This document shows positions 10,113-28,058 of a stretch of DNA of 64,000 nucleotides, one piece after another. The translations under genes were made by a program, and so were the position numbers. The DNA comes from Candidatus Nitrosocosmicus oleophilus (GTDB taxonomy: Archaea > Thermoproteota > Nitrososphaeria > Nitrososphaerales > Nitrososphaeraceae). The notes under the pieces are model-generated. The model ran no database searches. It was not told the origin of the DNA and saw nothing but the letters and a program-made list of their open reading frames with translations. How positions within the stretch are numbered: position 1 is the first letter of the stretch; every line of letters begins with the position of its first letter. Location: contig NZ_CP012850.1 of NCBI RefSeq assembly GCF_000802205.1, positions 2,170,001 through 2,234,000 of the forward strand, written 5' to 3'.

Positions 10113-10558
10113 CAGTCGTATATCGTTTAACGTTACTTATTATTCATTTTCAATGTGCCATTTTTTTTAATATTGTGCAGTTTAAGCATATATTCTGCGC
10201 CGACCGAAAAGTTATAATATTATGTCATCTACACCTAAAGGCCTAATTGGTTAAACCACTATGTTGATTATTTGATATGTCGTCTAGTGCAGGCAAGTGA
10301 TATGATCCCTACTTCGTTCAAATTTGAAAGTATCGTGATCCAAAATCAAAAATCTAAGGAGTGCGATTTTGAATAGTGATGGTTAACTTGTTAGCCATGA
10401 TAGTATCAATGGCCACAAAATATATGTATTTGATTTTACGAAATTATCCTACCTGTTCCTATTTATCCCAATATATCGGATAGAACCTGCCTCCGTTTAT
10501 TAACAATATTATAATTTACTAATTAGTAGTAAATTAAATATCAAAATATTATTACTGC
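10113..10558. other. Spacer between the two binding-protein genes
   Basis: No gene. The spacer contains the upstream region of the gene at 10112, with AAGCATATATTCTGCGCCG at about 10186-10204, one of several GCGC/TGCG-containing motifs shared by upstream regions in this locus. Confidence 0.35.
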
Positions 10559-11716
10559 TTATGGAATGGGGCTAAGGCCTTTGCTCTTTAGTACTTCGTT
10601 TAAGAGCCCAAGATCATAAATACTTGATAGATCTATTTCACGCCCGCTTCCAAGATTAATGTATCCCAAGTCGTTAGCATCCTCAGCAATCTTGTTAAGC
10701 GAGGACGATAGGGGATCGTATGTAAATTCTATTCGTGATAATGCGTCTTTTATTTGGTTCTCTGGATAAGTTTTACCAGTAATTTTTTTTAGCCCTTCAT
10801 TGAATGCAACCGCTAATTCTTGAATATTTTTTTCATCCGTTTCAGAATTATTAGTATTTGATAACTTTTGATTTATCCATAGTGTTTCATTGACATGTGC
10901 TTCGAGTAGTTTCTTTATGATTTCTGGATTCTTTTCAAGGTAATCTGCTCTGGCTAAAATATTAGCTGTCACGAATTTACCTTCTGGTGGCCAGAGATCC
11001 CTTTCGTCGACCAAGATAAATCCATCTCCTTGCTCTTTTAGAATGGCGACCAAAGGTTCGGGAACCCATGCTCCATCAATCTCTTTATTTACAAACATAT
11101 TGATTAAATCTGCAGGTTTTGCTGCTACCACTGTTACGTTTCCACCATTTTCAATAGTATTATAACCATTATCTATCAAGTATTTTCTCAAGGCCACATC
11201 TTGTGTGTTACCTAATTGAGGGGATGCAAATTTCTTTCTGCCTAGGTCATTGACTGTTTCTATTCCTGAATCATTTCTAACCACAAATGATGCGCCACCG
11301 CTAGATGCACCAGAAATTACGCGTAAACCATCTCCTCCCGAAACAATGTAACCATTAATAGTAGGGTTAGGACCAACGTAAGCTACATCAATCTGACCTG
11401 CATATAGAGCTTCAATCGCAGAGGGACCAGAGGTAAAAACAATCCCTTTTAGAGAGATGTTACCTAAATTCTTGTCATTTTCTATTATTTGCCTAAAATC
11501 TCCGTTATTTAAGCCAATAATGGCTTGAGCATGATTTAGGTTTGGAAAATACCCAATTTTCAAGGCATCAGCCTTCGCGTTTACGGTTTGACTGCTGGAT
11601 CCAGTTGTACTGTTATCCTGACCAAGCAATAAAGACCAATAGAAGTTATAATTAGAAGATATAATAACTGCGATAATTATGGCAAATGAAATACCCAATT
11701 TTAATTTTGAATCCAT
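10559..11716 (-). CDS. Sulfonate/nitrate/taurine-type ABC transporter substrate-binding protein (copy 2)
   Basis: 385 residues, a paralogue of the preceding gene. An N-terminal membrane helix (about residues 5-24) is followed by a short Ser/Thr linker and the same SsuA/NMT1-type fold: ALKIGYFPNLNHAQAIIGL, SGPSAIEALYAGQIDVAYVGPNPTINGY, EIDGAWVPEPLVAILKEQ. Central residues SGASSGGASFVVRNDSG onwards are identical to copy 1 because the two genes share 188 identical bases. Differences cluster in the first lobe and the C-terminal third, so the two proteins may bind different ligands while sharing the permease. The gene is upstream of copy 1 and downstream of the permease on the same strand. Substrate is inferred only from context. 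Confidence 0.88.
   Translation of the reverse strand: MDSKLKLGISFAIIIAVIISSNYNFYWSLLLGQDNSTTGSSSQTVNAKADALKIGYFPNLNHAQAIIGLNNGDFRQIIENDKNLGNISLKGIVFTSGPSAIEALYAGQIDVAYVGPNPTINGYIVSGGDGLRVISGASSGGASFVVRNDSGIETVNDLGRKKFASPQLGNTQDVALRKYLIDNGYNTIENGGNVTVVAAKPADLINMFVNKEIDGAWVPEPLVAILKEQGDGFILVDERDLWPPEGKFVTANILARADYLEKNPEIIKKLLEAHVNETLWINQKLSNTNNSETDEKNIQELAVAFNEGLKKITGKTYPENQIKDALSRIEFTYDPLSSSLNKIAEDANDLGYINLGSGREIDLSSIYDLGLLNEVLKSKGLSPIP
11133..11320 (-). repeat. 188-bp block identical to 9532-9719
   Basis: Partner of the conversion tract in copy 1; flanks diverge at once on both sides (GTTACG shared at one edge, GAAATTAC at the other). Confidence 0.9.
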
Positions 11717-11929: not shown

Positions 11930-12868
11930 TCATTTATTCTCGATATCATGCTCCTGTCTTAATCCCCATTTCTCTCTTACCTTATCTTCTAGTTTTGCAA
12001 AGATTACTTTGTCAAATAGCATTCCTAATGCGAAAATAGTAATCATAGATGCTATTATGTTATCCATCAGCTGAAATTCTCTACCCACTAACAGTATATG
12101 TCCTATCCCTACCGCAGCAGCCATTAGTATTTCCGCTCCAATCAAAGCGTGCCAAGCAAATGACCACGCTTGTTTTATTCCTATTATTAATGCAGGTGTG
12201 GCTGCTGGTATCATTAAATATCTAAATAATGAGAAACCCTTGGCTCCCATATTTCTTGCAGCCTTTAGATATATGGGCGGTATGTTTCTTATTCCACTAT
12301 ATGCTGAGATCATTACTGAAAATACTGAACTCATTATAACTACAAATAATATTCCAATATCATTTAGACCGATAAGCAGGATAGCAAATGGCACCCAAGC
12401 AACACTAGGAAAAGACTGCAATCCTACCGCAAAGGAACTCATTGTTTTTCCAAAACCGCCAAATCTTACCATTGCAAGTCCCACACAAACTCCAATTCCT
12501 ATTGAAGCAGCAAAACCAATCAAAAGCCTGTAAAGGGTCATTCCGATGCTTACCCACAACGTGTTATCTAGAATTAGGTCATAAAACGATCCTACTACCA
12601 TGATAGGAGAAGGTAGTGAAACTTTTGGCCAAATACCACTTAAATATGCCAGTTGCCATAGGCCGATAAAAACTGCAATAAATAAAACAGTATTAGCTAA
12701 TTCATCCAACTTAATTTTCTTTTTAAAGGGATTCTTACTTTCATTAGGCCTTTTTTCTTCTAAAGATAAGATTTCTGATTCCTCGATGGATTGTGATTCA
12801 TCAATGTTAATCATTACATCTTCTTTATTTTTCCGTCTAGTTTTATCGTCTTCCGGCCCCTCGTACAA
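11930..12868 (-). CDS. ssuC: ABC transporter permease, SsuC/TauC type (copy A)
   Basis: 312 residues from a TTG at 12868; an ATG at 12814 gives 294 residues and may be the real start. The first roughly 60 residues are hydrophilic. Then come about six transmembrane helices of the binding-protein-dependent permease family (LFIAVFIGLWQLAYLSGIW, TLYRLLIGFAASIGIGVCVG and others). The EAA-type coupling loop is seen in YLKAARNMGAKGFSLFRYLMIPAATPALI, which contacts the ATPase. It pairs with the ATPase at 14754 and the binding proteins at 8934 and 10559. The last 766 bases of the gene are nearly identical to a second permease gene at 24996; only the N-terminal part and a 13-base patch differ. Confidence 0.9.
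   Translation of the reverse strand: MYEGPEDDKTRRKNKEDVMINIDESQSIEESEILSLEEKRPNESKNPFKKKIKLDELANTVLFIAVFIGLWQLAYLSGIWPKVSLPSPIMVVGSFYDLILDNTLWVSIGMTLYRLLIGFAASIGIGVCVGLAMVRFGGFGKTMSSFAVGLQSFPSVAWVPFAILLIGLNDIGILFVVIMSSVFSVMISAYSGIRNIPPIYLKAARNMGAKGFSLFRYLMIPAATPALIIGIKQAWSFAWHALIGAEILMAAAVGIGHILLVGREFQLMDNIIASMITIFALGMLFDKVIFAKLEDKVREKWGLRQEHDIENK
11932..12697 (-). repeat. 766-bp near-identical block, partner of 24998-25763
   Basis: With a constant offset of 13,066 bases and no indels, I find complete identity over the first 621 bases (11932-12552). A 13-base divergent patch (12553-12565) and one further substitution near 12664 are followed by loss of identity after 12697. Identity begins exactly at the stop-codon region and ends inside the coding sequence. 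Confidence 0.9.
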
Positions 12869-13230: not shown

Positions 13231-14217
13231 TTAGATCCATTCGGCCTTAACTAAATTGTAGACTTTTTTTCTCGTGTCGTCCAAGCTATTCTTTTCTACT
13301 ATCAGCCCTTGCTCTTTGAGTTCTTCGACTGAAGCTTGAACAGTTCTTCGTGGTAGATTTGTAATATAGATGAGTTCGCTTTGATCAATGGGGTGTTTAC
13401 TCCTAATTATATAATGAATAAATTTTGTAGCCGGACTACCTTCAGGTCCTTTCTTGACTGGAGTAATACTAAAACTTGCCTTTGATAGGAAACCCCTCCT
13501 TTGGGATTCTATAGATAAAACATTATTGAGTTTAATCTCACCCATGCTGACTCGCTGTCCAAATTCTGCAACCAGTACTGCCTGCTGAATCTCTAAGGGA
13601 GCTTCAAAAATTATGCTGTTGGGAGAAATTTTTGAAGTAATAGCAGAAAGCAAATTCCATTTAATATCGCCCTTTTCATCATAGATGCCTACATTGTATC
13701 CCAAATTTGCCTCCAGAACTATTTTCTCTTGGCTTATTTCTAGAACTTCGTTCATCTTCTTTACGGTTTCATCAACTGAAAGTTGCCTTCTGGGATCTTT
13801 GTGTCCTATTTTCCATTGAGCCCTCATGTCATACGAATCAACTATTTTTAAAATCTTCTTTTTTTCCTCAAAGGTAAGATGAATGCTGTTTTCACTTATT
13901 TCAATAATATCAAACCCAATTGTTTTTGCACTGTCCATAAATTTATCAAACACTTGTTCACGAATGGCGTATTCAGTTAGAGTACTCCCAGTAGAGACTA
14001 GAACATTTGACTGATGGTAAAAATCGATTCTATTAATAAGACTCTGTTGTTTCAGAAGGAGAGGAAATGCCCCATATATCTTGACCATATCAATATAGGG
14101 AGAAATAGTTTCAAAATTCTCTTTATCAAGACCTTGAAATTTATCTATAATGTATGTAATACCATCATGGCGGGGCTTTTTATGATCTATTCTGTCCTCA
14201 ATGAGGGTTTCTAGCAT
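13231..14217 (-). CDS. Phosphosulfolactate synthase (ComA) homologue fused to a C-terminal winged-helix domain
   Basis: 328 residues in two parts. Residues about 15-250 align by eye with ComA, the TIM-barrel enzyme joining sulfite and phosphoenolpyruvate in coenzyme M synthesis: GITYIIDKFQGL, IDMVKIYGAFP, STGSTLTEYAI, GFDIIEISENSIHLTFEEKK, QWKIGHKD, VLEANLG and IFEAPLEIQQA all have counterparts. Residues about 265-328 form a winged helix (DQSELIYITNLPRRTVQASVEELKEQGLIVEK) of MarR/TrmB-like type. Archaeal ComA is normally about 250 residues without this domain. The ComA phenylalanine/tryptophan stretch after VKF is altered (VKIYGAFP). It may be a sulfolactate-related enzyme, or a regulator that uses the barrel as sensor. 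It lies between ATPase and permease genes of a sulfonate-type ABC system, which favours a regulatory role. Confidence 0.8.
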   Translation of the reverse strand: MLETLIEDRIDHKKPRHDGITYIIDKFQGLDKENFETISPYIDMVKIYGAFPLLLKQQSLINRIDFYHQSNVLVSTGSTLTEYAIREQVFDKFMDSAKTIGFDIIEISENSIHLTFEEKKKILKIVDSYDMRAQWKIGHKDPRRQLSVDETVKKMNEVLEISQEKIVLEANLGYNVGIYDEKGDIKWNLLSAITSKISPNSIIFEAPLEIQQAVLVAEFGQRVSMGEIKLNNVLSIESQRRGFLSKASFSITPVKKGPEGSPATKFIHYIIRSKHPIDQSELIYITNLPRRTVQASVEELKEQGLIVEKNSLDDTRKKVYNLVKAEWI

Positions 14218-14753
14218 GAATAGATGTATGCAGAATTTACATATAATTAAATTGATATATGCATTTTTGTAAGTACACAGTAGGCAAGGAGCACTAATTT
14301 TCGCATAAGACGTTAATTTGACGCATTATAAGTCTCATACCTTTTACGACTTTACTCTCCTAAATTTGTCCACTTTTATTCATGACAACCAAATCTACTG
14401 TATACGGTTTAGCGTAAAAAATGGTTTAAACCTGATGAAATATTTTGTTTCGAATTGCCAGGAAATGTTTACTGATATTTAGTAATCGCATAACTACTGT
14501 AACATTTATTTTTTCCAAACGTATTATCCGGAATTCTGATTGAACCCTTAATTGATAGTATGGCTTTTGAATAGTCTAATAATCATGCCATGAAAATGCA
14601 GACTTTGAGGATAACATTAGAGGCCGTTTTGATTTTAAAACAAAATAACCGGTGAAGAAATAATATCAAGACAAATGGATATTTCTAGTGCCTTTGAATA
14701 TCTTCTTGGTTTATCATCACCCTTTCCTGATCTTGAACTTGTGGAACACTTGA
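14218..14753. other. Spacer between ComA-like gene and ATPase
   Basis: No gene is seen over about 535 bases. The upstream region of the ComA-like gene contains TTCGCATAAGACG and TTGACGCATTATAAG (about 14298-14332), two CGCAT half-sites like those before other genes of the locus. Confidence 0.35.
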
Positions 14754-15626
14754 TTAATTTACAGTAGAAATAATTGTACGATTTAGCTCTTCACTAGCAA
14801 TTTCAGATTCTTTAACAGGATCATTCACAAATAAATCGTTTGATTCAGAAATTATTTCTCGGGTTATTGATTCAACTAGTGGATGGTCAATACTGCGTGG
14901 TCGCGGTATATTCACAATTATTTGTTTCTTAATATTCGCCAATTTAGGAGACATAACAATAACTCTGTCACCCAACGCCACTGCCTCATGAATGTTATGG
15001 GTAACAAACAAAATGGTTTTTTTGGTTTCTTGATGAATTCTCAACAAATGTGAATACAGCATTTTCCTAGTCTGAACATCTAAAGCGGCAAATGGCTCAT
15101 CCATTAACAAAATTTTAGGATCTAATGCCAATGCTCTGGCTATCGCAACTCTTTGCTTCATTCCTCCTGATAGCTGATGAATATAGGCGTGAGTAAAATT
15201 AGTCAATTGAACCATTTCGATTAATTTCATGACTTTTTCTTTTCTTTTTTCTTTTGGAATCCTTGCAATTTTTAAACCAAATTCAATGTTTTCACAAACT
15301 GTTAGCCAGGGAAACAATGCTCCTTCCTGAAAAACTATAACCCTATCCGTTCTTGGCGAGAGAGCAACAGGTTTATCATCAACGAGAATCTCTCCATCAC
15401 ATACCTCGTCTAAACCAGCAACCAAATTAAGTAACGTACTTTTTCCACATCCAGAAGGACCCACAATAGTAACGAACTCTCCATTTTTGATACTTAAATT
15501 AAGTTTGTTGATAACTGTATGTTTGGAATTAATCTTGTTCTTTTTATCAGTAAATCCTTTAGAAATGTTTTCAAGTTTTAGAATTAAACCATCAGTAGAT
15601 TGAATGGGACTTGCTAAGCTAGACAT
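14754..15626 (-). CDS. ssuB: ABC transporter ATPase, SsuB/TauB type
   Basis: 290 residues. All nucleotide-binding motifs are intact: Walker A GPSGCGKST (56-64), Q-loop VFQEGALFPW (98-106), signature LSGGMKQRV (152-160), Walker B LLMDEP (173-178) and the switch His in FVTHN (210). The FPWLTV segment after the Q-loop is typical of the nitrate/sulfonate/taurine subgroup. The protein powers import through the permease encoded nearby; the C-terminal about 40 residues are an acidic extension. A shrunken copy of this gene, lacking the signature and Walker B parts, is found next to the second permease at 25823. The gene has its own upstream region of more than 1 kb, so it may be transcribed separately from the permease. 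Confidence 0.92.
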   Translation of the reverse strand: MSSLASPIQSTDGLILKLENISKGFTDKKNKINSKHTVINKLNLSIKNGEFVTIVGPSGCGKSTLLNLVAGLDEVCDGEILVDDKPVALSPRTDRVIVFQEGALFPWLTVCENIEFGLKIARIPKEKRKEKVMKLIEMVQLTNFTHAYIHQLSGGMKQRVAIARALALDPKILLMDEPFAALDVQTRKMLYSHLLRIHQETKKTILFVTHNIHEAVALGDRVIVMSPKLANIKKQIIVNIPRPRSIDHPLVESITREIISESNDLFVNDPVKESEIASEELNRTIISTVN

Positions 15627-17223
15627 ATTTATTGTATAAATGAGAAATTATATAATTAAAGCCCTATACGCAACATTCGCCGATCTATGCCATACCTGCA
15701 CACTTCCTGAAATTTATGCGTCTTTTATGACTAATAATTTAGAACTTTTAAAGTCGTTATTTGGAAAATATATTGGTTTATTCCTACTTAAACGGAATTG
15801 ATCCTATATTAATCCCATATTTACTGCACAAAAAGGTATTAGTAGTAAGGGAATCTAGAATCTCTAATACTAAATTAATTTAGGCTAAGACTAAATTTAC
15901 CAGTTGCTATCTTTTCTTGTTAACGCGTAATTCCAAATTGCCTGGTAACTCCTAATAATTCAATAATAGTTTTGGAATTCACTACTCCAAATATATGATC
16001 TTTAATAGGACGATCCAAAACGTCAAGGACTCTAGTGTATTAGCGAATTTGTATAATGTAATTGGAAATAAGTAATCTTTAGATAAGTTCCTATGTGCAA
16101 GATCTGCATCCATTAGCTAAATTTGGCATATTATTATACCTATCTAAATGGTTCAATCGTATTATCTTTTATTGGGGATTGATACTTCATGTGGATTTAC
16201 TAATCGAAATTAAATAGTTTTTTGTATTTTTTTTATAAAGAGCGTTTAATAACTATGAAATACCCTATACTCATGATTGGCAGTCCCATCCAATCAAGTA
16301 GTTATGCCTTGCAGAAACACAAGAACGGTACGTATTCATTATAGTATGTGATTCAGGTAATAACTGAACCCATGCCATCACATGGTTAAGGTCAGCAACC
16401 TGAATCACAATCTCTGTTATATAAAAAGCAGAATACAAAACAAGTTTATGAGCACTATGATTTCATAAGGTTGACGTAAATATCTAGAAGAATAATAAAT
16501 GATGCATTCTCTATTTGGTTCATTAGAAAATATAGCGTTCAAACTGGAGAAATTTTAATCAAATTGGCCAAAAAATCTCAATATCTACTTTTGTATCCAA
16601 CATAACTGTACCTGTTTAATTTCTCTAACATTTAGCGAATCCAAGATTCAACTAAATAATTTGCATGCTAATTGCCGTTACTAGACTTCTTTATTCATTT
16701 TGGACGTGCTATTATCACAAGCATGGACCAAACTTTTAGTAAAATGCTACTGAGGAATTAAGTGTATTCCTTATCATTCTAAATAAGAGAAACACTTTAA
16801 ATTTCATTTATGCATTTGATCCAGTCTAATTATTATTTGCACTAGCTTTGATAGGAGTCTAAACTGTTTCAATCTTAATAGCCTTTCTTCTTGTACTTAA
16901 TTTCCTTAACAGGTGACTAAATATGCCTCATGAATCAAGGTAATATCTCATACAATAGACCAGTTTTCCTTCAGTTTCCCCAAACAACAAATCAAAAATG
17001 CGATGTAGACTACTTAATACATGTTCTGTACAGATTATTGTCCCATCCATTCTATAATGAAATGGCATCTTAAGCTTTTGTCCATGGCAAGAGCCTACCA
17101 AGCCAATAAGCAAATTGGTGCAAGCTAAAAAAAACAATATTGTTAAATTCAAAAAAAAATTTATTTAGCACCATAATAGAATTTACTAAGCATCTATTTG
17201 TGATCAATAGTGGTATTTCTTCT
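15627..17223. other. 1.6-kb gene-poor stretch
   Basis: No supported gene. A 74-codon minus-strand frame at 16928-17152 has no start signal and no resemblance to a known protein. Upstream of the ATPase, the sequences CTATACGCAACATTCGCC (about 15664) and AATTTATGCGTC (about 15712) contain TGCG-type half-sites. A 63-base imperfect hairpin at 16347-16409 is listed separately. Confidence 0.4.
16347..16409. repeat. Long imperfect hairpin with 12-bp outer stem
   Basis: TGTGATTCAGGT (16347-16358) and its exact complement ACCTGAATCACA (16398-16409) enclose a partly self-complementary middle that includes CCATG...CATGG. It could be a small structured RNA, a terminator or a miniature element. There is no gene within several hundred bases. 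Confidence 0.5.
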
Positions 17224-18222: not shown

Positions 18223-18444
18223 CTAAAAAGTAAATCTTATCCATCTAATTTCTTTTTGTTTGCAGAGAGGGCAGATCATTTTATGATTGTCTAAGTGGAT
18301 ACTTCCCGATGCTTCAGAGAATGATACTTTCCAAGAGCATTGGTTGCATCTTAGAGCATATTTGAAAGTCGAAATCTTCAAACGCATACCCAGGTCATCC
18401 TTTTCAATCCTTGAATCAATTGAATGATTTAGTTGCAAAGTCAT
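18223..18444 (-). CDS. Small zinc-ribbon-like protein (73 aa)
   Basis: 73 residues with two cysteine pairs, CNQC (about residue 33) and CPLC (about residue 58), separated by about 22 residues that include HLDNHK. This arrangement binds a single zinc ion in zinc-ribbon or C2H2-like folds of archaeal nucleic-acid-binding proteins. It begins with ATG and is oriented like the LpxD-like gene. Function unknown; a role as a small DNA-binding regulator is possible. Confidence 0.6.
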   Translation of the reverse strand: MTLQLNHSIDSRIEKDDLGMRLKISTFKYALRCNQCSWKVSFSEASGSIHLDNHKMICPLCKQKEIRWIRFTF

Positions 18445-18647
18445 AATTAGTTATTACAAAAATTGTAATAAAAGGAATGTTGTATATGATATATTGGAGT
18501 AGTATGCGCAAATAATTCACATTCTACTAGTTTTAGTTTAGCAAGGTCCTACCAAATTTACAATAAAAACAAGAATGGTTAACCGGTGCATCTGCTATTT
18601 TAGATCGATCCTTTCACAATTCCTACAAATGACTGAATGATTGTTGG

Positions 18648-18735: not shown

Positions 18736-19086
18736 TTATCTCATCATGTTTCTACATTCTTGGGCACATTTCTTACACATTTCAGCACATTCTTTACATG
18801 CTTCCATTTTGTTACCCATTTTTTCACATTCCATTGCACATGCATCACATATTGTAGCACACATTTCACACATTTGCTTTGAGTATTCGCTACCTCGAGC
18901 CATCATCATTGCTGTCATTGTACACATCAGAGCACAGTCTCTGCACATCATCATACATCGACCCATCATTCCGGCCATTTCGGTGTTAGACATACATTCA
19001 GTACAACAGGCTTCGCACATCATTGCGCATTCATTGCAAGTATCAATACAAGTTTGGTTTTTTTGATTAATAAGAGAAGTGTTCAT
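18736..19086 (-). CDS. csp: Four-helix-bundle copper-storage-like protein (Csp/DUF326), copy A
   Basis: 116 residues with 21 cysteines and more than a dozen methionines. Cysteines occur as CxxxC and CxxCxxxC along four predicted helices (for example CNECAMMCEACCTEC and CDACAMEC), the pattern of DUF326/Csp proteins, where they line the interior of a four-helix bundle that holds many Cu(I) ions. No signal peptide is present, so it should be cytosolic, like Csp3. A TATA box (19108-19118) lies about 26 bases before the ATG, giving a leaderless message. The gene plus 61 bases of upstream DNA is repeated exactly at 27241. Copper matters to ammonia oxidisers because their monooxygenase and electron carriers are copper proteins. 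Confidence 0.9.
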   Translation of the reverse strand: MNTSLINQKNQTCIDTCNECAMMCEACCTECMSNTEMAGMMGRCMMMCRDCALMCTMTAMMMARGSEYSKQMCEMCATICDACAMECEKMGNKMEACKECAEMCKKCAQECRNMMR

Positions 19087-19118: not shown

Positions 19119-19198
19119 TTTCTAAAAAATACGTCATTTATGTAAAATATGTGCAAATATTGCGCATATATTGACAAAAAATGTAATATTTATAACAA

Positions 19199-19221
19199 AT
19201 ATACGCAGGATGTGCGTATAT
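19199..19221. promoter_or_regulatory. Operator-like palindrome upstream of copper protein copy A
   Basis: ATATACGCA and TGCGTATAT are perfect inverted arms with a 5-base spacer (GGATG). It lies 80 bases upstream of the TATA box and outside the duplicated block. Related sequences (TGCGCATATAT at 19173, GCGCATAT at 19261, TGCGCATATG at 19852) occur nearby. Confidence 0.5.
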
Positions 19222-23486: not shown

Positions 23487-24377
23487 TTAAATCGAATCTT
23501 TCTCTATAGGATTTCCTATCAGGTTTCCCCATTCTGTCCAAGATCCGTCATAGTTTTTCACATCGGGGTAGCCTAACAAATACTTTAAGACAAACCATGT
23601 ATGCGAAGAACGTTCTCCAATTCTGCAGTATGTAATTACTTCGTTATCTGGATGGATACCTTTTGCTTCATACAGTTTAGACAATTCCTCAAATGTTTTG
23701 AATGTTCCATCGTCATTCAATACTTGTGCCCATGGAATGTTACTTGCTCCGGGGATGTGGCCAGCCCTTTGTGCATGTTCAGTGGGATACTCCGGCGGTG
23801 CCGTTATTCTTCCGTGGTATTCATCAGGACTCCTTACATCTACTAATCTAATTTGAAATCTTCTTCTGCTTACCAGAGAATCTTTTATGTCAGATAGAAA
23901 TATCCTTATACTGCTGTCTGGTGCAAAAGATTCACCAAGATTAAACATGCCTTTTGGATAATTAGGTATTTCTTTTGTAATTTCTTTATCCTCTTCTAAC
24001 CATTTTTTTCTTCCACCATTTAACAAGCGAACATCTTTATATCCATAGTATTTAAAAACCCAAAACGCAAATGCGGCAAACCAATTGTTAAAATCGCCAT
24101 ATAATACAAGAGTTTTTGAGTCATCATCTAATCCAAATCTTTGGAGTAAATTCTCATAGTTTTCTTTAGTCAAAATATCTCTCGACAAAGAATGGTTAAT
24201 GTCCTTTTTCCAATCCGCCAAAACTGCGCCGCGTATGTGTCCAAGAAGATAATTGGCTTTAGAGTCGTAGTCCACCTCAATGATTCTGACATTGGGGTCG
24301 CTTAGGTGCTTATCAAGCCATTGGGTTTCTACCAATACTTCAGGATGTTTGTATTCTATTTTTGTTGATTGAGCCAT
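23487..24377 (-). CDS. sseA: Two-domain rhodanese, thiosulfate sulfurtransferase
   Basis: 296 residues, full length. The N-terminal rhodanese domain (about residues 12-130) has YGDFNNWFAAFAFWVFKYYG and lacks a catalytic cysteine. The C-terminal domain (about 160-290) has LVDVRSPDEYHG, GHIPGASNIPWAQVL and the catalytic loop CRIGERS with Cys251, followed by YDGSWTEWGN. The CRxGxRS loop is the thiosulfate-type consensus. The enzyme moves sulfane sulfur from a donor such as thiosulfate to cyanide or cellular thiol acceptors. It is the only intact member among three copies in this window, with broken ones at 19916 and 34436. Upstream, TTTATGCGTAAATAG (about 24446) matches the recurring TGCG motif. 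Confidence 0.92.
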   Translation of the reverse strand: MAQSTKIEYKHPEVLVETQWLDKHLSDPNVRIIEVDYDSKANYLLGHIRGAVLADWKKDINHSLSRDILTKENYENLLQRFGLDDDSKTLVLYGDFNNWFAAFAFWVFKYYGYKDVRLLNGGRKKWLEEDKEITKEIPNYPKGMFNLGESFAPDSSIRIFLSDIKDSLVSRRRFQIRLVDVRSPDEYHGRITAPPEYPTEHAQRAGHIPGASNIPWAQVLNDDGTFKTFEELSKLYEAKGIHPDNEVITYCRIGERSSHTWFVLKYLLGYPDVKNYDGSWTEWGNLIGNPIEKDSI

Positions 24378-24995
24378 ACTTATGTTGGATTACGCTCTGC
24401 TTATTTTTGAACCGGTCCACGTAATTTTGGATTAAAATATGCAATTTATGCGTAAATAGTAGTTACATTGTTGGTCTTAAAATAATGGCTGTTTCAATTA
24501 CGAATGATATTACATATTCATACAAACACCATCAAATAAGATCTTTCAATATTTTTTATTCCATTCTAAACTTGAACAAACTATTAAAGTTAAAAGGTTG
24601 ATATCACAAAGAACGAATTTTTTTAGTGGTTTTTAATTTTTAATAATGTATACTTTGATATGACTATGAAGATATCTCGCGTAAATAGAAAATTTTTCGT
24701 GTATAAAAACAATATTATTACTTTTTGGTCGTAGAATAGGTAGCGCAGTGCTACGACTGTGTAAGAATACTTGTTCATGCAAATTACAGATTAGGGCGAT
24801 TAGGTAAGTTGATTTTCTTCTTCCAAACGTCCTAGTCTGTAATTATGAAAAATTAATGTTAAATTTGATTCCATTTGTCTTACATAAGACAAACGATCAT
24901 AAACTCATTCTCTATAACAAAATCGTTTAGTTAATGCAGGGCATTAATAACCCTCTGCAATTCATAAAAAAGAACATTATGTAATGGATATTGCT
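24378..24995. other. Spacer between rhodanese and permease B
   Basis: No gene. It contains two TGCG/CGCG motifs (TTTATGCGTAAATAG near 24446, CTCGCGTAAATAG near 24675) that share GCGTAAATAG. Confidence 0.4.
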
Positions 24996-25820
24996 TTATT
25001 TATTCTCGATATCATGCTCCTGTCTTAATCCCCATTTCTCTCTTACCTTATCTTCTAGTTTTGCAAAGATTACTTTGTCAAATAGCATTCCTAATGCGAA
25101 AATAGTAATCATAGATGCTATTATGTTATCCATCAGCTGAAATTCTCTACCCACTAACAGTATATGTCCTATCCCTACCGCAGCAGCCATTAGTATTTCC
25201 GCTCCAATCAAAGCGTGCCAAGCAAATGACCACGCTTGTTTTATTCCTATTATTAATGCAGGTGTGGCTGCTGGTATCATTAAATATCTAAATAATGAGA
25301 AACCCTTGGCTCCCATATTTCTTGCAGCCTTTAGATATATGGGCGGTATGTTTCTTATTCCACTATATGCTGAGATCATTACTGAAAATACTGAACTCAT
25401 TATAACTACAAATAATATTCCAATATCATTTAGACCGATAAGCAGGATAGCAAATGGCACCCAAGCAACACTAGGAAAAGACTGCAATCCTACCGCAAAG
25501 GAACTCATTGTTTTTCCAAAACCGCCAAATCTTACCATTGCAAGTCCCACACAAACTCCAATTCCTATTGAAGCAGCAAAACCAATCAAAAGCCTGTAAA
25601 GGGTCATTCCGATGCTTATAGTCAAAGTGCTATCTAGAATTAGGTCATAAAACGATCCTACTACCATGATAGGAGAAGGTAGTGAAACTTTTGGCCAAAT
25701 ACCACTTAAATATGCCAGTTGCCATAGGCCAATAAAAACTGCAATAAATAAAACAGTATTAGCGAAAACTTCCAGATCTACTTTAGTCTTTAAGGGAGAT
25801 TTTTTTTGTAGCTCTAACAT
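24996..25820 (-). CDS. ssuC: ABC transporter permease, SsuC/TauC type (copy B)
   Basis: 274 residues, intact, with the same transmembrane core and coupling loop (AARNMGAKGFSLFRYLMIP) as copy A. The N-terminal cytoplasmic part is shorter (MLELQKKSPLKTKVDLEVFANTV) and unrelated at base level. Protein differences from copy A in the shared region are confined to one patch (DSTLTISIG versus DNTLWVSIG). The stop codon differs (TAA here, TGA in copy A). The ATPase gene next to it (25823) is gutted, so this permease must use the ATPase at 14754 or be redundant. Its open frame, despite decayed neighbours, suggests recent gene conversion from copy A or selection. Confidence 0.88.
   Translation of the reverse strand: MLELQKKSPLKTKVDLEVFANTVLFIAVFIGLWQLAYLSGIWPKVSLPSPIMVVGSFYDLILDSTLTISIGMTLYRLLIGFAASIGIGVCVGLAMVRFGGFGKTMSSFAVGLQSFPSVAWVPFAILLIGLNDIGILFVVIMSSVFSVMISAYSGIRNIPPIYLKAARNMGAKGFSLFRYLMIPAATPALIIGIKQAWSFAWHALIGAEILMAAAVGIGHILLVGREFQLMDNIIASMITIFALGMLFDKVIFAKLEDKVREKWGLRQEHDIENK
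24998..25763 (-). repeat. 766-bp near-identical block, partner of 11932-12697
   Basis: See the partner block: 621 identical bases, a 13-base divergent patch (25619-25631), one more substitution, then identity to 25763. There are no indels. Confidence 0.9.
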
Positions 25821-25822
25821 GA

Positions 25823-26194
25823 TTAATTCGGGCTTAAAAGCGAAATAATTTGTTCATCATCTGCAAGTTTTAGACCTAATTCACAATGGTTAATAAAGAA
25901 CCATTCAGATTCCAATAGTGTTTCTCTTGAAATTGATTCGACTAAGAGATGATCGATTTTGCGCTGAGAAGGGACACTTAGGTCAGGTTCTATATTTAGT
26001 AATGCACTTTTTTCATATCCAAAAGGATCTCCAATAGCAACAAATCCTCCTTTTTTTACCTTTGAACTTAATTTGTCAATGACAGCAAGTCTAGTGGTAT
26101 CATTATTATTGGGAACAAATAATTCCTTTGACATATTTTGAAGATCTAAAAAAGGATTGTTAATAGATTGTAGATGATTCACTAAGTTCGACAT
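25823..26194 (-). pseudogene. Gutted ABC ATPase remnant
   Basis: A 123-codon frame that still opens like the intact ATPase (LQSINNPFLDLQNMSKE, VIDKLSSKVKKGGFVAIGDPFGYEKSALLN). The Walker A is damaged: GDPFGYEKSAL replaces GPSGCGKSTL. Sequence then jumps to the equivalent of the C-terminus (RKIDHLLVESISRETLLESE, compare RSIDHPLVESITREIISES in the intact protein). About 170 residues with Q-loop, signature, Walker B and switch are missing, apparently by one internal in-frame deletion. It cannot hydrolyse ATP. It lies 2 bases upstream of permease B, preserving the original gene order ATPase-permease. Confidence 0.85.
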
Positions 26195-27240
26195 TTAATT
26201 TATAACAAAGTGTTATAATATAATTGAAATCTTATGTGCAGTATTAGCAGTTTAATGCAAGATCTACCAGTATCGACTGCATACCTCGTCTATAACTTCG
26301 AAAAAGGTAATTAAAACCTTATATCCTCTACAGGGAAAAATAAATATTCTTCACTCTGAAAAATCAAAAATCTTTTGACCCGTCATCATACTGAAAATGG
26401 ACATTGCGGAAAAATATTTTAACTCACTGATTTAGTAACTACATTTCTGACTCTCTTGTATTGGTTAACTCTGATTAGATTATGGCAATTGAATAAAGAA
26501 ATATCCTTTGCTGGTTAAAGCTAGCCAAATTAAAAAGGATAATAAATAAGATAAATTATGAGTGTCTTTTATTTGAAAAAGTTTGATCCTCAACAGGGTT
26601 TTGAAGTAACTATCATTCATTATACAGTATAAGAGATAACTGTACCAAATCAGTATTGAATAACTAACACAACAATTCATGCTATTTATGCATCCTTATG
26701 ACCAAAATGTCACAGATCCTAGAATAAATATACAATTTCCATGCTTTATTTCATATGAAAAAGGCATCAAAATCTCAAATGATAGAAGCCGTATATTCCC
26801 ATTACACGAATCCTGGTAACCTAGGTAATGAAAAAACTGAGAAAGAATTTGAAAAAATGGAGATAGCAGCAGCTTTGGCTCATATTTACGGATATGGTTA
26901 GTACTGAGATGAATTACTGATCCAGCCACTAAAGTCTCAATATTTACTCCGTACCTAAAATTGTGGATCTTTATTCAAACTGAATTATCTTATACTACAC
27001 GTAACAAAGGTACCAATTTTTAAAAGGAGGAATTAACATGCCTCCAAAAGTCTGCATGAATCAACATTCGGGTGTTAAAATTGCACTCATTTTAAGGTTA
27101 TATTAAGATCTACAGATTAAGTGATTTAATTTATTGAAACAATAATATTGGATTCTTAGAGAATCAGTCCATCAAAAAAGAACTAATCCAAAGTATTTGA
27201 TTGGATAACACAAAAAAGGTTCAGATGTTTTATGAAAAAA
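26195..27240. other. 1-kb gene-poor stretch
   Basis: No supported gene apart from a 22-codon frame at 27038 that has a strong ribosome-binding site. Two longer frames (26480-26680 and 26696-26929, minus strand) are rich in Tyr, Leu and Ser and look accidental. Confidence 0.4.
27038..27106 (+). CDS. 22-codon frame with a strong Shine-Dalgarno sequence
   Basis: AAAGGAGG (27023-27030) lies 7 bases before ATG, far better than the signal before most genes here. The frame reads MPPKVCMNQHSGVKIALILRL and stops at TAA. It may be the intact 5' end of a gene lost by deletion, or a small leader peptide. No family can be named. Confidence 0.3.
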   Translation: MPPKVCMNQHSGVKIALILRLY

Positions 27241-27591
27241 TTATCTCATCATGTTTCTACATTCTTGGGCACATTTCTTACACATTTCAGCACATTCTTT
27301 ACATGCTTCCATTTTGTTACCCATTTTTTCACATTCCATTGCACATGCATCACATATTGTAGCACACATTTCACACATTTGCTTTGAGTATTCGCTACCT
27401 CGAGCCATCATCATTGCTGTCATTGTACACATCAGAGCACAGTCTCTGCACATCATCATACATCGACCCATCATTCCGGCCATTTCGGTGTTAGACATAC
27501 ATTCAGTACAACAGGCTTCGCACATCATTGCGCATTCATTGCAAGTATCAATACAAGTTTGGTTTTTTTGATTAATAAGAGAAGTGTTCAT
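27241..27591 (-). CDS. csp: Four-helix-bundle copper-storage-like protein (Csp/DUF326), copy B
   Basis: Identical in every base and residue to copy A (21 Cys, no signal peptide), including the TATA box and 61 bases of upstream DNA. Further upstream the sequences differ: here GATATGCGAGAATAGCGTATAAATGAC replaces the region with the perfect palindrome found before copy A, though TGCG/GCGTATA half-sites remain. Two identical genes would double the dose of the copper-binding protein, or respond to different regulators because the distal upstream DNA differs. The orientation is the same as copy A, and the distance between copies is 8,505 bases. Confidence 0.9.
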   Translation of the reverse strand: MNTSLINQKNQTCIDTCNECAMMCEACCTECMSNTEMAGMMGRCMMMCRDCALMCTMTAMMMARGSEYSKQMCEMCATICDACAMECEKMGNKMEACKECAEMCKKCAQECRNMMR

Positions 27592-27652
27592 GCATTTAAT
27601 ATCTTAAAATTATTATATAAATCTTTCTAAAAAATACGTCATTTATGTAAAA
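27241..27652 (-). repeat. 412-bp block identical to 18736-19147
   Basis: Exact partner of the copy A block. Boundaries are abrupt on both sides; no inverted repeats or target duplication were found at the edges, so this is not an insertion sequence. Confidence 0.92.
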
Positions 27653-28058
27653 GATATGCGAGAATAGCGTATAAATGACAAAAAAATAAAATATTTATAA
27701 AAAATGTATGTGATTTAAACGCATAGCGATATACATATTAGGCAGATTTTGTCTGTCTATCGATTCATTAATCTTGGACTTTATAATATACCGGCTATCC
27801 CAAGAAAATATCAACTTAATACTGTTTGGATCATTGTCTGATTTTTTAGGGATAATTTGTCTAGACAGATCATACTTTCTAACCAATATAATAAAGGGTA
27901 ACGACTCATCTTTTAAAAGTTCAAATTCAAAAATGTAAAGTTATATTCTAGGGAGCTAATATCTAACAAAAAAAATTAAATGAACTATGGACTATTTATC
28001 TTTCTGTCCCATTAATTTTATGAAAATATGAGTATGAGAAACTCAAAGACCAAAACTA
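27592..28058. other. Spacer between copper protein B and carbonic anhydrase
   Basis: No supported gene. A 63-codon minus-strand frame (27695-27886) looks accidental. TATGCGAGAATAGCGTATAAATG near 27655 and ACGCATAGCGATATAC near 27719 contain paired TGCG/CGCA half-sites. Confidence 0.35.

Follow-up and report, generated by a model that had tools for sequence, protein, structure and literature searches.

The window analysed here, a 64,000-nucleotide stretch of the complete 3.43-Mb genome of Candidatus Nitrosocosmicus oleophilus, encodes a protein that combines a barrel of the phosphosulfolactate synthase (ComA) family with a C-terminal winged helix. We consider it probable that this protein is a one-component regulator, in which a repurposed ComA barrel acts as the sensor and the winged helix binds a palindrome to control a regulon of a sulfur type. 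No description of a ComA-winged helix fusion was found in the literature searched, and the main text of a paper on archaeal fusion families mentions neither ComA nor HTH. The gene occupies the coordinates that an earlier, sequence-only reading of the window had given it; its strand is the minus strand, on which it runs from 14217 to 13231:

13231-14217, minus strand: ComA-winged-helix protein (P0001), an open reading frame of 328 aa
13486-14184, minus strand: ComA-type TIM barrel, residues 12-244 (Pfam, 1qwg match and predicted structure)
13252-13440, minus strand: predicted MarR-like winged helix, residues about 260-322, with the recognition helix LPRRTVQ (predicted structure and conservation)

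Residues 12-244 match the Pfam ComA family (PF02679; 5e-62, 209.9 bits, above the cut-off of 25.2) and the M. jannaschii ComA structure 1qwg (3.6e-31). An AlphaFold2 model of the protein, obtained from a 60-sequence alignment (mean pLDDT 88), contains a barrel superposable on 1qwg (TM 0.88 by target, E 3e-20), a flexible linker (residues 245-256) that is ill-defined and of low confidence, and a tail with a helix-helix-helix-strand-strand topology. Folded alone, the tail matches many MarR regulators (e.g., 2nnn and ST1710, 3gfi; TMq about 0.7), with an rmsd of 1.2-1.8 Å for its best structure matches. Structure prediction of both domains thus bears out the claim that about 65 extra residues form a winged helix: as modelled, the C-terminal tail is a winged-helix DNA-binding fold. 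Since 13 of its positions are invariant across 44 homologues from two phyla, it is not a chance open frame. The tail falls outside the MarR family proper, as its match to Pfam MarR_2 (residues 267-316; 1.5e-4, 22.3 bits) lies under the curated cut-off of 27 and, at ~65 aa, it lacks the MarR dimer helices. The likeness to MarR regulators lies in the winged-helix fold and in a palindromic site of about 20 bp, whereas in the fused protein the ComA barrel would serve as both the sensor and the probable dimer module.

A survey of 400 genomes of the class showed full-length fused copies to be common in the family to which the window belongs and less so in a second one (genus code g20); the deeper Nitrososphaeria families f4, f7 and f12 have them as well. 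When one genome per species was scanned, proteins of this architecture also turned up in about two dozen genomes of Thermoplasmata. The family of fused proteins spans ammonia-oxidising archaea of soil, deep relatives of these, and the Thermoplasmata. A second full-length copy, a paralogue (63%), is encoded elsewhere in the window genome. In a quick tree of the barrels the fused proteins cluster together with moderate support (SH-aLRT 93), long branches being present. The winged-helix tail was absent from the plain ComA proteins in which it was sought, namely those of M. jannaschii (1qwg, 251 aa), bacteria and halophiles (e.g., Methylocystis, 271 aa; Natrinema, 276 aa; Nocardioides, 261 aa), and the 303-aa ComA of Xanthobacter has a tail of a different kind. 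An ordinary ComA plus tail is thereby rejected, and with it the possibility, raised by the sequence-only reading, that ordinary ComA proteins share the extension. We also rejected an HSA32-like ComA homologue: these proteins (about 280 aa), which belong to the same Pfam family and also occur in the deep Nitrososphaeria, lack the winged helix, have other motifs and form a separate branch of the tree. A virus or plasmid origin was similarly discarded, as viral contigs contain no relative and plasmids carry only plain ComA proteins.

Were the protein an ordinary phosphosulfolactate synthase whose C-terminal extension is of no consequence, its Pfam ComA match, well above the cut-off, would be expected. 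The tail, however, is strongly conserved across the family, and in a second, very divergent fused copy (L042:10166-11155 and L076:2752-3744) the winged helix retains 59% identity to that of the window protein whereas the barrel retains 35%. Together with the loss of motifs and the absence of ComB detailed below, this makes such a synthase a scarcely credible account of the protein.

Two further arrangements of related winged helices were observed. One, at L211:460-714, is an 84-aa winged helix from this lineage that stands on its own, with no enzyme domain attached. The other is an NAD kinase (L003:1492-2496, minus strand), whose C-terminal winged helix is related to that of the fused protein (36% identity in the window genome). 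The NAD kinase-winged helix fusion is also present in L092, L209, L212 and L213, occurs in Nitrosopumilaceae and other Nitrososphaeria, and may be another combination of enzyme and wing that is common among ammonia-oxidising archaea.

The barrel had been described as following ComA motif by motif. This holds for the fold and for most of the signature positions, but not for two of the motifs of the solved enzymes. The M. jannaschii and B. subtilis ComA structures (1qwg, 1u83) have in common the GWGT, GGTL, EVG and RESG motifs; in the window protein, E133 and R170 of M. jannaschii ComA correspond to K136 and N171, altering the EVGK and RESG motifs. Across the fused proteins of ammonia oxidisers (n=63, a set that leaves out one very divergent pair), the E-to-K replacement is present in 62/63 and the R-to-N replacement, accompanied by a one-residue gap, in 63/63. 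In the Thermoplasmata set of 24 proteins, the E is kept in 23 and the R in 22, along with the EVGKK and RESG motifs, and several deep Nitrososphaeria fused proteins retain the full ComA motifs. The pocket residues D25, K46, E82, E106, E169, E205, Q212 and R240 are strictly kept. The conservation pattern points to a catalytic role for E133 and R170. Because their replacements are fixed, not drifting, and much of the remaining pocket is invariant, a re-specialised ligand site would fit better than decay.

The strict retention of most of the pocket is also what would be expected of a trigger enzyme, whose barrel still makes phosphosulfolactate (or catalyses a related sulfite/PEP reaction) and whose winged helix couples this activity to transcription. 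Such a bifunctional state is plausible in the deep Nitrososphaeria and Thermoplasmata, which combine the full ComA motifs with the winged helix. Against it in the ammonia-oxidiser clade stand the fixed replacements with their one-residue gap, a score of 171 bits with the NCBIfam ComA equivalog model TIGR03849, which does not reach the cut-off of 280, and the absence of ComB. A search of the complete window genome for the phosphosulfolactate phosphatase ComB (PF04029) gave no match, the same search being positive in 7 of 14 control genomes. The window genome therefore has no standard coenzyme M route, in line with the earlier expectation that classical coenzyme M use would not be found. On balance, we judge the trigger enzyme to be an unlikely description of the window protein. 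Under the one-component regulator that we favour, the barrel would have lost its phosphosulfolactate synthase function in ammonia-oxidising archaea and would act as a ligand sensor instead. The substrates of ComA are sulfite and PEP, and hence sulfite, PEP or related sulfonates are the first candidate ligands; the barrel may thus recognise sulfite, a small sulfur oxyanion, a sulfonate or PEP.

The fused gene sits between the ATPase and permease genes of an SsuABC-type transporter, followed by two adjacent binding proteins, which are the only members of their family in the window genome:

8934-10112, minus strand: substrate-binding protein 2 (NCBIfam SsuA_fam, 199.7 against a cut-off of 163.5, passed)
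10559-11716, minus strand: substrate-binding protein 1 (SsuA-like, NMT1_2; profile match)
11930-12868, minus strand: ABC transporter permease (SsuC-like; profile match)
14754-15626, minus strand: ABC transporter ATPase (SsuB/TauB/SaoA-like; profile match and neighbour conservation)

The three kinds of transporter gene adjoin the fused gene in many further genomes too, in varying order and either co-directional or divergent, a frequent divergent layout having the permease, ATPase and binding protein on one strand and the fused gene on the opposite one. This linkage extends to members from f7 and f12, some of which have intact ComA motifs. That the association recurs although the gene order changes speaks for a functional link between the fused gene and the transporter. 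The Thermoplasmata fused copies are not beside an SsuABC-type transporter. At the level of its family, the transporter has sulfonate as a candidate substrate. A TauD-type desulfonation partner was absent from the four genomes searched; luciferase-type oxygenases are present, but are too common to be assigned this role. The window also contains, at 24996-27591, second copies of the permease (near-identical) and of the Csp-like gene (identical), together with a truncated ATPase, representing a partial duplication of the transporter/Csp block.

Expectation-maximisation on 58 upstream regions yielded a 21-bp palindrome, TATATGCArAwTyTGCATATA, with a log-likelihood of 474 as against 43-49 for shuffled upstream regions, and a matrix built on Nitrososphaera-type loci recovers it in held-out Nitrosocosmicus-type loci. 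It lies upstream of 30/37 transporter-linked fused copies versus 0/9 unlinked ones (Fisher p 1e-5); linked copies with no site before the gene include L057, as well as L063-L065, where the gene is operon-internal. With a score of at least 12, the palindrome is found upstream of the ATPase in 13/28 cases, the substrate-binding protein in 18/41, Csp in 4/5 and the zinc-ribbon gene in 4/8, against a background of 1.4% of 582 other ORFs, with the matrix trained on the fused gene's own promoters and the genomes being related, such that these tests are not fully independent. None of the 36 permease upstream regions has the palindrome, and alignment of the upstream regions alone gave no operator for the unlinked paralogues. 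The window has the following predicted sites and targets:

10151-10191, minus strand: predicted extended operator with 2 mismatches, comprising the palindrome and a half-site; the palindrome has its centre 70 nt upstream of the binding-protein-2 start
14225-14245, unstranded: predicted palindromic operator TATATGTAAATTCTGCATACA, its centre 18 nt upstream of the regulator start codon (motif search)
15684-15704, unstranded: predicted weaker palindrome (score 13), centred 68 nt before the ATPase start (motif search)
16092-16112, unstranded: predicted strong palindrome (score 22.5), within a long stretch between genes
18223-18444, minus strand: zinc-ribbon-like protein of 73 aa, predicted target
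18503-18523, unstranded: predicted palindrome with its centre 69 nt upstream of the zinc-ribbon-like gene
18736-19086, minus strand: Cys-rich Csp1-like four-helix-bundle protein (DUF326), predicted target
19127-19167, minus strand: predicted extended operator, exact match, whose palindrome has its centre 72 nt upstream of the Csp-like start
19179-19220, minus strand: predicted second palindrome before the Csp-like gene, palindrome part exact
23487-24377, minus strand: two-domain rhodanese (sulfurtransferase), predicted target
24436-24456, unstranded: predicted palindrome with its centre 69 nt upstream of the rhodanese gene
27632-27672, minus strand: predicted extended operator (2 mismatches) upstream of the Csp-like gene at 27241-27591, which is an identical second copy

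The regions upstream of 10112, 11716, 12868 and 15626 had been named in advance as candidate binding regions; the first and last carry predicted sites, while 11716 and 12868 have no clear site. The proposal of a one-component sensor controlling the transporter is supported both by the linkage kept in rearranged gene orders and by a palindrome common to the regulator, ATPase and binding-protein genes. As side observations, the palindrome at 16092-16112 lies in 1.3 kb of sequence with no clear gene and is conserved in the relative L039; 19916-20311 holds a truncated rhodanese gene that looks like a decayed duplicate; and the divergent fused copy in L042 has a target-type site at -71.

A simple 17-bp pattern is weakly enriched in the window (5 versus 1.07 expected, with one mismatch), and the matrix and whole-genome searches were needed to go beyond it. 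Sites across the genome were searched for with patterns instead of the matrix, and weak matches are unreliable since the reversed-pattern control was unmatched in composition. Across the 3.43-Mb genome there are two exact matches to the palindrome, both upstream of the Csp-like gene starting at 19086, and 12 sites with at most two mismatches, 6 of them within about 10 kb here. The extended pattern (palindrome plus half-site) has seven matches in this genome, six of which fall inside a 17.5-kb part of the window, two of these six belonging to the duplicated Csp copies and hence not being independent. With 0 or 1 mismatch, six extended matches were obtained from five of twelve genomes with the fused protein and none among twelve genomes without it; three-mismatch matches occur in both kinds of genome and are not trustworthy. 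Some sites are on contigs other than the one with the fused gene, upstream of a further ATPase copy (L226) and close to SufU-like genes.

The palindrome might instead serve an unrelated transcription factor encoded elsewhere, with the fused protein merely travelling with the transporter genes. To this reading we give little credence: the palindrome occurs at the fused gene itself and is missing before the unlinked paralogues, no other DNA-binding gene was found to be conserved among the neighbours, and every extended site with no more than one mismatch came from a genome that encodes the fused protein. We infer instead that the fused protein is the cognate regulator, whose MarR-like winged helix would bind the palindrome as a dimer.

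The sites differ in position between the two kinds of promoter, those of the targets being mostly at -68 to -82 from the start codon and those of the fused gene itself mostly at -15 to -25. In 16/22 target promoters the half-site GCRYATTT is present at a fixed offset, followed by an A+T-rich TATA-like stretch. In the archaeal regulators TrmBL1 and Tgr, motifs above the BRE/TATA lead to activation, and those below it or in the start region to repression (PMC4158304). Applied to the layout seen here, this position rule predicts activation of the targets and autorepression. By this analogy, the own-promoter site, covering the TATA/start region, suggests self-repression, and the target site about 70 nt upstream, with the palindrome and then the half-site 20 bp further down just above the TATA-like box, suggests activation. 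These TrmB-type dual regulators further resemble the fused protein in having one wing plus a sensor domain and in controlling ABC transporters, but the sensor domain and the domain order are different and there is no sequence membership.

The regulon is likely to be wider than the neighbouring transporter, adding the Csp-like copper-storage, zinc-ribbon and rhodanese genes to the SsuABC-type transporter as putative targets. A copper-storage protein was gained in Nitrososphaerales (PMC7554672). The combination of sulfonate-type uptake, a rhodanese and a Csp-like protein (with SufU-like proteins in some genomes) suggests that the regulon would control the supply of sulfur, possibly linked to copper/Fe-S. 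A regulator responding to a non-sulfur signal, with the barrel sensing PEP or another carboxylate or the regulon answering copper or Fe-S stress, is a less probable but real contender. The best sites of the window genome precede Csp-like copper-storage genes, SufU-like genes carry sites in some genomes, several Thermoplasmata copies are near carbohydrate genes and not SsuABC, and PEP is the other ComA substrate. Weighing against it, the SsuABC-type transporter genes are the most widely linked ones, and the predicted targets include a rhodanese.

As Pfam places the protein in the ComA family, automatic annotation would imply a coenzyme M pathway, which is probably missing in ammonia oxidisers. 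A regulator built in this way has an analogy in the ROK repressors (NagC, Mlc), which combine a metabolic enzyme fold with a winged helix; these are bacterial, of a different enzyme family and with the domain order reversed. We tentatively propose an enzyme-to-switch series, for which the case is close to balanced: the intact-motif forms of Thermoplasmata and deep Nitrososphaeria may be bifunctional, and in ammonia oxidisers the changed pocket may have become a dedicated sensor of a sulfur metabolite, acting on a sulfur/copper regulon via a new 21-bp operator. The survival of versions both with and without the catalytic motifs makes the family a clear case for studying enzyme-to-sensor evolution. 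If the protein is indeed a regulator, it would give soil ammonia-oxidising archaea a transcription factor that can be tested together with its operator and its list of targets, and would link the SsuABC-type transporter, sulfurtransferase and copper storage in these organisms.
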